From Eisenbergiella porci (GTDB lineage Bacteria > Bacillota > Clostridia > Lachnospirales > Lachnospiraceae), in the NCBI RefSeq assembly GCF_009696275.1, contig NZ_VUMI01000004.1:124001-188000 (forward strand): a stretch of 64,000 nucleotides of DNA. Direction: 5' to 3'. This document shows positions 233 through 5,114 of the stretch, in pieces; the first letter of the stretch is position 1; the number at the start of each line of letters is the position of its first letter. A program made the translations under genes and the position numbers. Below the pieces are notes generated by a model. It did no database searches. It was not told the origin of the DNA and was given only the letters and a program-made list of their open reading frames with translations.

Positions 233-279
233 AGTAATAGAACAAATAAAACAAATGCAGATACAGGAGGGCAATGTGT

Positions 280-2880
280 ATGAATATTTCAAAATTTACA
301 CAGAAATCCATGGAAGCCGTGGAACGGTGCCAGAAGCTGGCCTATGAATACGGCAACCAGGAAATAGAAGAAGAACATCTGCTCTATAGCCTCCTTACCA
401 TAGAAGACAGCCTGATACTTAAGCTGATTGAGAAAATGGGTATTCAGAAGGAGCACTTTGTTAACCGGGTGGAGAACGCGGTGAGCAAGCGTGTCAAGGT
501 GCAGGGCGGACAGGTTTATGTGGGAAGGGATCTGAATCAGGTGCTTACCTCCGCAGAGGATGAGGCAAGGCAGATGGGAGACGAATATGTTTCCGTTGAG
601 CATCTTTTCCTGAGCATGATCAAGCATCCAAATAAGGAAATCAAGGCTATCTGGACCGAATACGGCGTTACCAGGGAACGGTTTCTGCAGGCGCTTTCCA
701 CAGTGCGGGGCAACCAGAGGGTAACCAGCGACAATCCGGAGGCTACCTATGATACGCTGGAGAAGTACGGCGAGGACCTGGTGGAGAAGGCGAGGAACCA
801 GAAGCTTGATCCGGTAATCGGCAGGGATGCGGAGATCCGTAACGTTGTCCGTATCCTTTCCAGAAAGAGCAAGAACAATCCGGTCCTTATCGGTGAACCC
901 GGCGTGGGCAAGACGGCTGTTGTGGAGGGCCTTGCCCAGAGAATTGTGCGCGGCGATGTGCCCCAGGGACTGAAGAATAAGAAGATTTTCGCACTGGATA
1001 TGGGCGCGCTGGTGGCGGGCGCGAAATACAGAGGCGAGTTTGAGGAGCGTCTGAAGGCCGTGCTTGAGGACGTGAAGAATAGCGAAGGCCAGATTATACT
1101 TTTCATAGATGAGCTGCATACCATTGTGGGGGCAGGTAAGACGGAAGGAAGCATGGATGCCGGAAATATGCTCAAGCCCATGCTGGCCAGGGGCGAGCTG
1201 CACTGCATCGGCGCCACCACGCTGGACGAGTACCGCCAGTATATTGAAAAGGATGCAGCACTGGAACGCCGTTTCCAGCCTGTTATGGTGGATGAACCCA
1301 CGGTGGAGGACACCATTTCCATCCTCCGCGGACTGAAGGAGAGGTATGAAGTATTCCATGGCGTGAAAATTATGGATAACGCGCTGGTAAGCGCCGCCAT
1401 CCTGTCCAATAGATATATTTCTGACCGTTTCCTGCCGGATAAGGCCATTGACCTGGTGGATGAGGCCTGTGCCCTGATTAAGACGGAGCTGGATTCCATG
1501 CCTACCGAGCTGGATGAACTTCAGCGTAAAATCATGCAGATGGAAATCGAAGAGGCTGCGTTGAAAAAAGAAGAGGATCGGCTGAGCCAGGAGCGTCTTA
1601 CGGACCTGCAGAAGGAACTGGCGGAGCTGAAGGAGGAATTCCAGAACAGAAAGGCCCAGTGGGATAATGAAAAGGCAAGCGTGGAGAAGCTGTCGAAGCT
1701 GCGTGAACAGATAGACGCCATCCAAAGCCAGATAGAAATCGCCCAGAGAGAGGGTAATCTGGAAAAAGCGGCGGAGCTGAGCTACGGCCGGCTGCCGGAG
1801 CTGCGCAGACAGCTGGAGCTGGAAGAAGAGAAGGTTAAAAATGAAGATCTGTCCCTGGTACACGAAAGTGTAAGCGAGGATGAAATTGCCAGAATCGTGT
1901 CCCGGTGGACCGGCATACCGATTTCCAAGCTGACGGAGAGCGAGAGGAACAAGACGCTGCATTTGGACGAGGAGCTTCATAAGAGGGTGATTGGCCAGGA
2001 TGAAGGCGTTACCAAGGTGACGGAGGCAATTATCCGTTCCAAGGCCGGCATTAAAGACCCTACCAAGCCTATTGGCTCCTTCCTGTTCCTGGGACCTACC
2101 GGCGTAGGTAAGACAGAGCTTGCAAAGGCGCTTGCAGCGGCGCTGTTTGATGATGAAAACAATATGGTCCGCATTGATATGAGTGAATATATGGAGAAAT
2201 ACTCCGTGTCCAGGCTGATCGGAGCGCCTCCCGGATACGTAGGCTATGAAGAAGGCGGACAACTGACCGAAGCGGTCAGAAGAAAGCCCTACTCGGTGGT
2301 GCTGTTTGATGAAATAGAGAAAGCCCATCCGGATGTATTCAATGTGCTGCTTCAGGTGCTTGACGACGGCCGGATTACGGATTCCCAGGGAAGGACGGTA
2401 GACTTTAAAAACACCATCCTGATCATGACGTCCAATATCGGAGCCAATTATCTGCTGGAGGGCATCAGCCACGACGGCGAGATTACGGAGGAAACGGAAA
2501 ACTATGTAATGACGGATCTGCGCGCTCATTTCAGGCCGGAGTTCTTGAACCGTCTGGATGAAATCATACTGTTCAAGCCGCTTACCAAAGATAATATCGG
2601 AGGCATAATCCGCCTGATTATCGGGGATTTGAACAAACGTCTTTCCGACAGGGAGCTGACGATTGAACTTACCCCTGCGGCAGAGGAATTTGTTGTGGAT
2701 AATGCATATGATCCGGCATACGGCGCAAGGCCGTTGAAGAGATATATTCAGAAGTATGTGGAGACGCTTTCCGCGAAGCTGATTCTGCAGGACGCAGTGG
2801 GAGAGGGCGATACCATCCTTATAGATGTAAAGGACGGCAGTCTGGAAGCCCACAGGAAGGAAGTTCCCGCCAATATGTAA
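280..2880 (+). CDS. clpB: ClpB/Hsp104-type ATP-dependent disaggregase chaperone
   Basis: ClpB is a cytoplasmic hexameric AAA+ unfoldase that pulls proteins out of aggregates together with DnaK. In order the protein has the Clp N-terminal repeat domain (about 1-145), AAA module 1 with Walker A GEPGVGKT near residue 205 and a DELH Walker B, a coiled-coil middle domain (about 410-530, rich in E, K, L, Q) that separates ClpB from ClpA and ClpC, AAA module 2 with GPTGVGKT near 605, and a C-terminal D2-small domain. Length (866 aa) is normal. The second in-frame ATG (280, [10 protein letters not shown]) sits 9 bp after AGGAGG and fits family starts better than the ATG at 274. It stands alone between its promoter and the terminator at 3002-3040. 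Confidence 0.97.
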
Positions 2881-3001
2881 CAGCGCGGGCAGGCGGCCCA
2901 TAATGCGGCAATCGTTAATGGCCGGCTTCCGGCGGCGGTCCTGGGAACTGGATTTTGCGCCAACCATGAAGGCGTCGGACTGTAAAACTTTAAATGAAAA
3001 T

Positions 3002-3040
3002 AAAATCCCCTCCGGTGAGATATACACCGGAGGGGATTTT
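3002..3040. terminator. bidirectional rho-independent terminator
   Basis: A perfect 16-bp stem (3002-3017 with 3025-3040) has a 7-nt loop, AAAA at the left and TTTT at the right. It can end clpB on the plus strand and the oadB operon on the minus strand. The 120 bp between clpB and this hairpin contain nothing recognisable. Confidence 0.9.
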
Positions 3041-3138
3041 GTAATGGCTCAAAAAATATGGATGCTAAATCCAAACTTGCATTCCAGAAAGTTCAGTTAT
3101 CTGAATTGTTACATTATTTTGCCGGCTGAAATACAATG

Positions 3139-3288
3139 CTATTTTTCAGCCTTATTCTCATCTTCTTTTTTCCCGGCGCCAAGACGGCCCATCAGAGCCA
3201 CGACCAGGCTGATAATAATGATAACGGTGAAAATTCCAACCATACCCTTTCCCATGATGGACAGGGTAATTAAAAAATTATTCCACAT
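3139..3288 (-). CDS. 49-aa OadG-like small membrane subunit
   Basis: The minus-strand frame 3288-3139 encodes 49 residues beginning MWNNFLITLSIMGKGMVGIF, then a hydrophobic helix (about residues 16-34) and a charged tail rich in K and E ending in AEK. An AAGGAGT site lies 8 bp before the ATG. A short N-terminal segment, the sequence GKGMVGIF and one membrane helix match the gamma subunit (OadG) of sodium-pumping decarboxylases, which binds and stabilises the beta subunit, but this version lacks the long Pro/Ala and metal-binding tail. It lies 91 bp downstream of the oadB-type gene and ends at the shared terminator. The OadG identity is inferred from helix, motif and position. Confidence 0.7.
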   Translation of the reverse strand: MWNNFLITLSIMGKGMVGIFTVIIIISLVVALMGRLGAGKKEDENKAEK

Positions 3289-3379
3289 AAAAAATACTCC
3301 TTTCCGTAACAGTAAGTTAACCTGCGGTTAAAAGCGTCCGTCCCACAAACAGGCGGAAGCCAGGCTGAAATCGTCCGTC

Positions 3380-4519
3380 CTACAGATAAGCGGAAACCAG
3401 GCTGATAACCAGGCCGCCCGCGATAACGGAAGCAATCTGGCCGGAAACATTGACGCCGGTCGCCTGCATGATAAGAATATTGCCAGGATCTTCCTTCATG
3501 GCCATCTTCTGTACGACTCTGGCGGACATGGGGAAGGCCGAAATACCGGCGGCGCCTATCATGGGATTGATTTTTTCCTTGCGGAACAGGTTCAGGACCT
3601 TGGCAAAAAGAACGCCGCCGATGGTGTCGAATACGAAAGCCACAAGGCCGAGCACCATGATCAGCAGGGTGTCAAGGCGTACGAAGGCATCCGCTCTCAT
3701 GCTGAAGGAAATGGTGATTCCCAGAAGCAGGGTAATCAGGTTGGCAAGGGAGGTCTGGGCGGTATCGGAAAGATTTCCCAGGACGCCGCATTCACGAAGC
3801 AGGTTGCCGAACATCAGGAAACCGACTAAAGATACAGAGGCGGGGGAAATCAGTCCCACCAGGAAGGTAACAATTATCGGGAAAAGGATCCTGGTGGTCT
3901 TTGTAACCGGTCTGGCCGGTTTGGCGGGCATGCGGATCCGTCTTTCCTTTTTCGTGGTGACCAGACGGATGGCAAAGGGCTGTACAATGGGAACCAGCGC
4001 CATGTAAGAATAAGCGGCGACGGCAATTGGGCCGACATACCTGGAACCCAGAACCTGGGAAACCAGAATGGAGGTGGGGCCGTCGGCAGCGCCGATGATT
4101 CCGATGGATGCGGCATCCTTCAAATCAAAGCCCATCAGAGCGGCGGCGCAGATGGCAAAGAAAATACCAAACTGGGCGGCAGCGCCGAAAAGGAACATGA
4201 CGGGCTGGGAAAGAAGGGGACCGAAGTCAATCATGGCTCCGATACCGATAAACAGCAGAATCGGGAGCGCTTCGGAGGCCTCAATCCCTACGTTGAACAG
4301 CCATTCAATGATACCGTTAACCTCTCCGATGCCGGACATGGTCTGGTTGATGACGCCGGACAGCGGAAGATTGACGAGAATGGCGCCGAAGCCCATGGGC
4401 AGAAGCAGCGCAGGCTCGTACTCCTTTTTGATTGCGAGATAAATGAGCAGGAGGCTGACAAGATACATAATTACCTGCTGGGGGGTGATGGACAGTAATC
4501 CTTCATAAATGAATTCCAT
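3380..4519 (-). CDS. sodium ion-translocating decarboxylase beta subunit (OadB/GcdB/MmdB family)
   Basis: Members of this family are membrane pumps that couple decarboxylation of biotin-bound CO2 to Na+ export. The 379-aa protein is almost entirely hydrophobic helices. IGAADGPTS (residues 142-150) and the GVNVSGQIASVIAGG segment near the C-terminus are the signature regions that carry the Na+-binding residues. Start: ATG with AAAGGATG upstream. No alpha (carboxyltransferase) or biotin carrier gene is adjacent; the only partner visible is the 49-aa gamma-like protein downstream. Transcription should start near 4830 and pass through a structured leader with its own terminator, so expression is probably controlled by attenuation. 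Substrate (oxaloacetate, methylmalonyl-CoA, glutaconyl-CoA or another role) cannot be told. Confidence 0.92.
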   Translation of the reverse strand: MEFIYEGLLSITPQQVIMYLVSLLLIYLAIKKEYEPALLLPMGFGAILVNLPLSGVINQTMSGIGEVNGIIEWLFNVGIEASEALPILLFIGIGAMIDFGPLLSQPVMFLFGAAAQFGIFFAICAAALMGFDLKDAASIGIIGAADGPTSILVSQVLGSRYVGPIAVAAYSYMALVPIVQPFAIRLVTTKKERRIRMPAKPARPVTKTTRILFPIIVTFLVGLISPASVSLVGFLMFGNLLRECGVLGNLSDTAQTSLANLITLLLGITISFSMRADAFVRLDTLLIMVLGLVAFVFDTIGGVLFAKVLNLFRKEKINPMIGAAGISAFPMSARVVQKMAMKEDPGNILIMQATGVNVSGQIASVIAGGLVISLVSAYL

Positions 4520-4652
4520 ACTTTTTCATCCTTTCTTTGTGGTGGTAAAATGTTGCAGGGCTGCAGCGTCATGTACATTTTACGGGAGGCGCCAGGCTCT
4601 TACAGTAATGGTAAAGCAAAAACGCCGCCCGGGGAAATTCCTGTAAAACCAT

Positions 4653-4687
4653 AAAAAAAGAGACCTTCGGCGTACGCCAAAAGTCTC
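4653..4687 (-). terminator. intrinsic terminator within the oadB leader (attenuator)
   Basis: On the minus strand GAGAC-U-UU-U-GGCG pairs with CGCC-G-AA-G-GUCUC and is followed by seven U (4659-4653). It lies 134 bp before the oadB start, so transcripts must read through it for the gene to be expressed. Confidence 0.85.
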
Positions 4688-4830
4688 GTTCTTTCTTCAC
4701 AGAAAGTGTACAACCATGATTCAGCCTGCCTGTCCCGGCATACGGTACTGTAAATCTGCGTTTCCCGTAATGCGGACGGCCTGAATCAGGGTATGTTGAT
4801 TGTACATGGATACTACTCCCCTTTAACTTA
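4653..4830 (-). ncRNA. riboswitch-like leader resembling yybP-ykoY (Mn2+), upstream of oadB-type gene
   Basis: Read on the minus strand, the leader begins UUAAAGGGGAGUAG (to 4813) and its 3' part contains a small hairpin (4706-4691) followed by AACGAGAC (4690-4683). These match from memory the two halves of the conserved internal loop of the yybP-ykoY manganese riboswitch (GGGGAGUAGC ... GCAAGACC). Between them are a 9-bp helix (4798-4806 with 4707-4715) and a 7-bp helix (4781-4787 with 4718-4724). GUUAAAG (4827-4821) can pair with CUUUUGGC (4683-4676), which is also the left arm of the terminator hairpin at 4687-4660, so closing the aptamer would prevent termination (an ON switch). Class assignment is by eye; a sodium or other ion class remains possible. 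Confidence 0.7.
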
Positions 4831-4835
4831 TCTTC

Positions 4836-4865
4836 AGAATAGCATCAAAAAAGAAGCTATGTCAA
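4836..4865 (-). promoter_or_regulatory. promoter of the oadB leader transcript
   Basis: On the minus strand TTGACA (4865-4860) is followed after 18 bp by TATTCT (4841-4836). Initiation would fall just before the conserved GGGGAGUAG of the leader. Confidence 0.65.
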
Positions 4866-5085
4866 GTCCATTTCATAATATGAACAAAATATATACATGA
4901 ATTCAGGGGGGGAATGGCGTGTGTCGCTCTGCCCGGAGCTGGTTTTGTCCCCGGAGACGTCAGCGGCGGTGATGCAGTTCCCCCCTGTCCATGGGACTGT
5001 CTGCCCGGCGTTCTGTTTTCCGGGAGGGATGGGGGCTATTTGCGTGACTCGCATGCAAATATTAGAAGAAAATAAGCCAGGTTTC

Positions 5086-5114
5086 TTGAAAGAAGGGCGG
5101 GGATTGCCTATAAT
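5086..5114 (+). promoter_or_regulatory. promoter of the DUF4250 / RACo-like pair
   Basis: TTGAAA (5086-5091), 17 bp, TATAAT (5109-5114), followed by a 120-bp leader to the DUF4250 ribosome binding site. The stretch 4870-5085 upstream has no convincing gene. Confidence 0.65.

Follow-up and report, generated by a model that had tools for sequence, protein, structure and literature searches.

A gene of the oadB type within a 64 kb stretch of the Eisenbergiella porci genome (hereafter the window) stands apart from the alpha-subunit and biotin-carrier partners of a Na+-translocating decarboxylase, and is followed by a gene for a 49-residue one-helix protein resembling OadG, described here as the micro-subunit. 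Judged by its sequence, covarying helices, binding loops and downstream genes, the RNA leader ahead of this orphan oadB is related to the yybP-ykoY Mn2+ riboswitch but lacks one hairpin, P2. We consider it probable that the locus is a Mn2+-induced unit controlled by this leader, in which orphan OadB and the micro-subunit form a predicted Mn2+ exporter of the secondary transporter kind. All window features lie on the minus strand unless stated, and run from a promoter-like pair through the leader, its terminator and oadB to the 49-residue open reading frame (ORF).

A riboswitch-like leader ahead of orphan oadB

The original prediction for this DNA described a structured leader with motif halves, helices and an alternative terminator, and this description is borne out by sequence, folding and model matches alike. 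Positions 4640-4860 (minus strand) fold with an energy of -78.1 kcal/mol, whereas shuffled versions average -53 (z -5.89) and none of 200 folds as well. Three covariance models were built, from 17 oadB leaders with P2 (R1), 12 leaders of a second subtype (R2) and five P2-less leaders from outside the window's genus (R3). A joint alignment of all leaders with P2 had mixed two subtypes and was split into separate alignments, and an earlier P2-less alignment, with three badly placed sequences (15 of 27 pairs), gave way to the final version of five sequences. The E-values of these models are rough, and the sequences used in building match their own model by construction. R3 matches the window leader with 71.1 bits (E 1.4e-17) and R1 with 27.8 bits (E 3.1e-5), in each case as the sole match in the 64 kb, and R3 matches the leader at all 13 loci of the window's genus. 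The two larger alignments contain 50 and 59 double-change cells, against 17.1 ± 4.5 and 18.8 ± 3.6 when shuffled; both also lie far above slid controls, over which structures drawn from the member sequences hold an advantage.

The printed consensus of RF00080, the Rfam model of yybP-ykoY RNAs, contains GGGGAGUAG and GUCAACAUAC, and the window leader contains GGGGAGUAG and UCAACAUAC. In loop L1 the GGGGAGUAG motif stands with ACGAGAC, a 3' strand that is poorly shown in the RF00080 consensus and rests here on the oadB leaders. In the Lactococcus lactis riboswitch, the Mn2+ ligands are N7 of A41, an invariant base, together with phosphates of G9, U39, C40, U44 and C45 (accessible text of PMC9190785). 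By our own correspondence the UCA of the window's loop L3 would be the counterpart of U39-C40-A41, and the equivalent of the invariant adenosine is kept within UCAACAUAC. The 5' arm of the terminator (4687-4676) contains the 3' strand of L1 and P1.1 and is exclusive with P1, as expected of an ON switch; the switching itself is predicted. Read by eye, the alignments fall into leaders with both P2 and P4 (L071, L073), many with P2 and without P4, and the Eisenbergiella type, with P4 and without P2.

Related leaders precede orphan oadB and metal-efflux genes

The original prediction proposed looking for the leader at oadB-only loci of other Lachnospiraceae. Orphan-type OadB loci were sampled as the best 80 of at least 579 confirmed loci in named genomes (71-97% identical over the best segment), and a motif rule places a leader within 700 nucleotides (nt) upstream of oadB at 44 of the 80, 57-416 nt from the gene start, four of the 80 having less than 700 nt of upstream sequence. 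The rule finds a leader at none of 12 ordinary oadB loci. Outside those 44 it picks out three places when both strands of 1,066,304 bases are scanned, each preceding metal-transport genes or an oadB-containing operon. At L103 the leader has oadB and its small ORF on one side and mntP and a P-type ATPase gene on the other, at L066 it stands before a P-type ATPase gene 2 kb from oadB, and at L041 it heads a row of a Na/Pi cotransporter gene and oadB. At E<=1 over the 80 loci, R2 gives 48 matches, comprising the 44 motif-rule leaders, two at the head of oadB-containing operons (L041, L057) and two before adjacent metal-transport genes (L103, L066), with none elsewhere; the weakest have E-values of 0.2-0.7. 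R1 gives 47 matches over these loci and R3 gives 28.

Beyond oadB, R1 matches occur in 103 of 393 Clostridia genomes, and by Pfam the genes after the 30 best encode MntP (16), P-type ATPases (7), Na/Ca exchangers (5) and ABC transporters (2). One of the 16 MntP genes belongs to the window's genome, and its leader (L124:1501-1598, equal to C65:26354-26451) carries P2. Among 396 genomes from the family, 49 contain R3 matches, and the top 30 matches stand before oadB (11, counting the window), Na/Ca exchanger genes (10, L177 and L193 being such loci), P-type ATPase genes (7), a Na/Pi cotransporter gene (1) and a contig end (1, L196). Several of these 30 loci or genomes had already been used in other tests and are not all independent evidence. 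The variety of genes downstream of R3 matches therefore ties the P2-less form to metal-efflux genes in general, not to oadB.

Individual leaders showed further peculiarities. Tandem R1-type leaders of 69.4 and 36.5 bits lie before a P-type ATPase gene at L116 (G113:C60:4832-5069), and at L134 and L141 R1-type leaders are followed by ABC transporter ATPase genes, which are not obvious candidates for Mn2+ efflux. The oadB behind a P2-less leader at L179:1672-2890 has its frame broken into two ORFs, by a real break or a sequencing error. A Na/Pi cotransporter gene behind the leader at L041 and L176 hints at a link between Mn2+ and phosphate.

A branch of OadB proteins without decarboxylase partners

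The window OadB is homologous to its family over its full length (PF03977, 497.6 bits; TIGR01109, 405.9 bits). In a midpoint-rooted FastTree phylogeny, 106 orphan and intermediate OadBs (window included) separate from the canonical OadBs, with support of 0.75 for the orphan/intermediate clade and 1.0 for the canonical clade, of which the sample comprises 12 only. The former clade is marked in all 106 members by D298 (G in 12/12 canonical), Q361 (V in 12/12 canonical) and E83 (G, S or A in canonical), and in 105 of 106 by I97 (canonical T) and A144 (canonical G). Glu40, Arg304 and Asn311 are reported as essential in Salmonella typhimurium oxaloacetate decarboxylase (OAD; accessible text of PMC7274780). 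The Glu40 equivalent (E35) is kept, and the Arg304 position varies in orphans and canonical proteins alike; at the Asn311 position the window has T, and N is found in 61 of 87 orphans, 16 of 19 intermediates and 12 of 12 canonical proteins.

The small protein had been called an OadG-like helix protein, and so it appears, though below both curated cut-offs (OAD_gamma, 22.9 bits against 27; NCBIfam OadG_rel_small, 20 against 25). A small ORF bearing its motif follows oadB within 450 nt at 74 of the 80 loci; among the other six, two have fewer than 150 bases left and L052 shows a near-motif. Micro-subunits continue for only 23-49 residues, counted from where the motif begins. The tail by which the S. 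typhimurium gamma subunit binds alpha comprises residues 61-84 (PMC7274780).

Gene neighbourhoods were compared at 105 orphan loci, comprising the 80 named, six relatives and 19 fetched by place, the last being a biased sample chosen partly for leader matches. Within the examined stretches (tblastn, 1e-6), an alpha subunit lies beside oadB at none of the 105 orphan loci, as opposed to 12 of 12 canonical loci, and a biotin carrier at one of 105 as opposed to 12 of 12; among the ORFs around the window's oadB neither was recognised. The lack of partners put forward in the original prediction thus extends, for alpha, to the whole of the sampled clade. At E<=0.001 the window's genome has a single further OadB (48% identity), beside a biotin carrier on contig C67, and the genome's only PF02436 (alpha-type) match is also at C67, beside this canonical OadB.

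A metal-transport or Na/Pi gene lies within the examined stretch at 12 of the 105 orphan loci and at none of the 12 ordinary loci, where that stretch is short. The 12 feature MntP (L103, L161), P-type ATPases (L103, L099, L066), a Na/Pi cotransporter (L041), a partial Na/Ca match (L150), and CNNM/CorC directly before oadB (L057, L087, L090) or before the leader (L022, L063, L075). At L161 the row reads leader, mntP, oadB, the MntP call on its 200-residue ORF resting on 35-40% matches to Pfam-tested MntPs; at L103 it reads oadB, leader, mntP, ATPase. A P-type ATPase match at L089 (23-33%) was left uncounted. CNNM/CorC genes were also seen beside or directly before oadB or the leader at L187, L190, L196 and L194, the last in the same genome as L022.

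A proposed model for Mn2+-induced export

At low Mn2+, GAGACUUUUGGC would pair with GCCGAAGGUCUC (12 bp, -18.0 kcal/mol) and transcription would stop; the computation without ligand also favours this fold. Mn2+ would dock L1 onto L3 and stabilise P1, withholding GAGACUUUU from the terminator and allowing RNA polymerase to read through; we infer such induction, and the genes would likely be transcribed at high cellular Mn2+. OadB and the micro-subunit are predicted to form an elevator-type carrier as in the OAD beta-gamma complex, without alpha and freed from carboxybiotin. In this carrier the invariant Asp298 and Gln361, with Asp146, Ser327 and Asn357, may make up a binding site for divalent metal, by which Mn2+ would leave the cell in exchange for Na+ or H+. 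Because the Na+ sites are kept, our guess for the driving force is Na+ antiport. The ion-homeostasis unit of the original prediction is therefore supported by its context; that it moves Mn2+, and what powers it, we infer.

A bolder proposal, which we would put at even chances, is that a branch of the decarboxylase pumps dropped its biotin chemistry and became a dedicated Mn2+ exporter composed of OadB and a helix of 35-50 amino acids, with the Asp and Gln converting Na+ sites into a Mn2+ site, and that its control in many Clostridia falls to Mn2+ riboswitches with a three-way junction, overlooked by the current Rfam model. An OadB-derived exporter, if demonstrated, would add a new family of manganese exporter, drawn from a kind of protein familiar for pumping Na+ by decarboxylation, and would provide a function for genes named sodium ion-translocating decarboxylase subunit beta by an NCBIfam model. 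It would also suggest that a Mn2+ riboswitch can work without the P2 hairpin.

Conflicting evidence and alternative explanations

The observations that weigh against a Mn2+ exporter under such a riboswitch concern the fit of the leader to its class, its distribution, and the OadB protein itself. Across the window no Rfam family attains gathering, and RF00080 (gathering 45 bits) has no match at E<=10 in 4500-5100; Rfam matches at E<=10 are of chance level only. The Rfam check of RF00080 and the Na+ and Li+ classes, which the original prediction had named, was accordingly negative: neither the Na+-I (DUF1646) nor the Li+ riboswitch reaches gathering in the window or E<=10 near the leader. Leaders of 20 chosen relatives all fall short of the RF00080 gathering score. 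The four-way junction of the class was not found, P1, P3 and P4 being present and P2 absent; with the L1 and L3 sequences kept, we therefore take the binding loops to be retained and one hairpin to be lost. Among ligand-free computed folds the terminator (-75.4 kcal/mol) is better than the P1-enforced fold (-51.5 kcal/mol) by 23.9 kcal/mol. Moreover, neither oadB nor the head of its operon is preceded by a leader at 34 of the 80 orphan loci, some of them in records labelled Bacteroidetes and Spirochaetae, and oadB would therefore be regulated otherwise in other organisms. The leaderless orphan OadBs at L108, L109 and L110 (Bacteroidales, Spirochaetae and Bacteroidetes records) are 71-73% identical, and gene transfer or misbinning is possible there.

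The reach of RF00080 itself bears on its silence here. In the 47 genomes searched, its matches were assigned to oadB leaders by comparing positions with locus ranges. The best oadB leader seen, from Blautia (L071), scores 44.1 bits (E 5.9e-11), just below 45; matches of 43-17 bits lie right before oadB at L073, L058, L065, L050, L042, L096 and L055, and in the remaining 39 of the 47 genomes no match before oadB was found. Over the window's own genome RF00080 gives three weak matches (18.8, 11.1 and 8.9 bits), the best of which (L001) has ORFs around it that, judged from the ORF listing, look like mobile-element genes. The own-genome mntP leader scores 66.3 bits with R1, yet has no RF00080 match. 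When 20 R1 loci were scanned with Rfam, RF00080 reached E<=0.01 in five (24.5-38.1 bits) and exceeded 45 bits in none, the mntP leader lying outside these five. Because this leader, strong with R1, is missed, the Rfam model seems to undercount the Mn2+ riboswitch class in Clostridia. The class assignment of the original prediction consequently stands on sequence, covariation, binding loops and downstream genes and is right in substance, although RF00080 misses the window leader and P2 is absent. One outcome that it had named as fatal, the lack of a covariance match together with a leader not conserved ahead of other oadB genes, holds for Rfam's own model only.

In the same scan RF02617 (SSRC10, 'Streptococcus sRNA 10') matches five of the 20 Clostridia leaders (L119, L120, L122, L128, L132; best 43.2 bits, gathering 56), all preceding mntP or a Na/Ca exchanger gene, and SSRC10 itself may be a streptococcal Mn2+ riboswitch leader.

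The conflicting features of the protein suit an alternative that we regard as unlikely, namely that orphan OadB continues to transport Na+ and, under Mn2+ stress, acts as a substitute beta subunit with alpha and carrier encoded elsewhere, or alters the Na+ gradient driving Na+/Ca2+-type Mn2+ exporters. The Na+-site residues of S. typhimurium OadB are given as D203, S382 and N412 (PMC7274780). Their equivalents D146, S327 and N357 are present in 106 of 106 sampled proteins, and E35 is likewise invariant in the clade; because these residues are kept, Na+ transport alone may be what the protein performs. The window's genome holds the single PF02436 match and a carrier at C67, Na/Ca exchangers belong to the same regulon, and at L157:2628-3023 (minus strand), beside an intermediate OadB 63% identical, a biotin-carrier-like match ends 24 bases before oadB. 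Biotin ligase is found in 78 of the 80 orphan-oadB genomes, so a carboxybiotin link may persist, and the absence of the ligase could not serve to decide on biotin independence. However, the alpha at C67 adjoins that genome's canonical OadB, no alpha lies in the examined stretch of any of the 105 orphan loci, and the essential Asn311 is replaced by T in the window and kept in 61 of 87 orphans. The micro-subunit, moreover, stops 23-49 residues from its motif start, short of the alpha-binding tail of residues 61-84 described in PMC7274780.

Somewhat less probable again is that the leader is a yybP-type variant for another ion (Ca2+, Mg2+, another divalent ion or Na+), with OadB handling that ion. 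Variants sensing other divalent ions are expected according to a review (accessible text of PMC7266159), and the loss of P2 in the Eisenbergiella-type subgroup and the presence of Na/Ca exchangers and CNNM/CorC in or beside the regulon would agree with one. Set against this, the RF00080 consensus agrees with the window in L3 and in the 5' strand of L1, the leader keeps the adenosine responsible for Mn2+ selection in L. lactis (PMC9190785), P2-less leaders precede P-type ATPase genes in other genomes, and a P2-bearing leader precedes mntP in the same genome. A chance resemblance, the leader being a structured terminator leader without metal sensing, would account for the missing Rfam match but is highly improbable given the R3 score, from a model to which the window's genus contributed no leader, the covarying helices, and the leaders before 44 of 80 oadB genes against three other places in 1.07 Mb scanned.

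Features of the locus and its surroundings

The coordinates of the locus are collected in Table 1. The sigma-70-like pair sits just 5' of P1; five such sites occur in 3000-5100, where 2.2 are expected. Downstream, an inverted repeat (AAAATCCCCTCCGGTG/CACCGGAGGGGATTTT) at window positions 3040-3002 separates the micro-subunit gene from a convergent 868-residue ORF (274-2880, plus strand), presumably a ClpB-like protein, and is perhaps a terminator common to both genes.

Table 1. Predicted features of the orphan oadB locus, in window coordinates.
Feature	Position	Strand	Remarks
Sigma-70-like promoter	4865-4836	-	TTGACA 4865-4860, 18-nt spacer, TATTCT 4841-4836; 10/12 of consensus, not proof
Manganese-riboswitch-type leader	4828-4674	-	predicted three-way junction, no P2; R3 and R1 matches
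P1.1 5' strand (AAAG) and loop L1 5' strand (GGGAGUAG)	4824-4813	-
L1 motif GGGGAGUAG	4821-4813	-	also present in printed RF00080 consensus
L3 loop UCAACAUAC	4799-4791	-	RF00080 consensus equivalent GUCAACAUAC
P3 arm	4805-4708	-	GUACAA 4805-4800 with UUGUAC 4713-4708; UCA with UGG; long extension in this species
P4 hairpin CUUUCU-GUGA-AGAAAG	4706-4691	-
L1 3' strand ACGAGAC (4689-4683) and P1.1 3' strand UUUU	4689-4679	-	GAGACUUUU common to terminator 5' arm
Intrinsic terminator	4687-4653	-	12-bp stem 4687-4660, -18.0 kcal/mol, then T7
Orphan oadB-type gene, 379 residues	4519-3380	-	PF03977
OadG-like one-helix micro-subunit, 49 residues, short tail	3288-3139	-

Comparison with known systems

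Within the accessible open-access PMC literature we found no paper joining yybP-ykoY RNA, or riboswitches, with orphan OadB, and the word 'decarboxylase' is absent from the main text of the 2013 regulon survey (PMC3766115). Where yybP-ykoY and oxaloacetate decarboxylase occur together in that literature, the Na+ class is concerned (PMC9337991). This Na+-I (DUF1646) riboswitch is reported to precede some oxaloacetate decarboxylase genes, in a case where the gene is named pycB and called oxaloacetate decarboxylase (accessible text of PMC9337991); the window leader has no Rfam match to that class.

The micro-subunit resembles OadG (PF04277) and OadG_rel_small (NF040909) in its single hydrophobic helix, its weak profile matches and the adjoining OadB-type gene, but falls below both curated cut-offs and has a short C-terminal tail. 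Its partner retains the equivalents of D203, S382, N412, E40, Y229, N373 and G377 of the OadB of Na+-translocating decarboxylases (S. typhimurium, 6iva); unlike canonical OadB, it belongs to a separate clade with D298, Q361 and E83 invariant, A144 and I97 nearly so, and no adjoining alpha. The leader shares with yybP-ykoY (RF00080) the L1 and L3 sequences, a P1 overlapping the terminator, P3 with L3, and P4, and its relatives precede MntP, P-type ATPase and Na/Ca exchanger genes; it differs in lacking P2 (a predicted three-way rather than four-way junction), in scoring below gathering, and in controlling an OadB-type gene. Overall, OadB is like MntP (PF02659) in having the same RNA class in front, the window's own genome included, and in sharing one row with it at L161 and L103, and unlike MntP in belonging to a different protein family.

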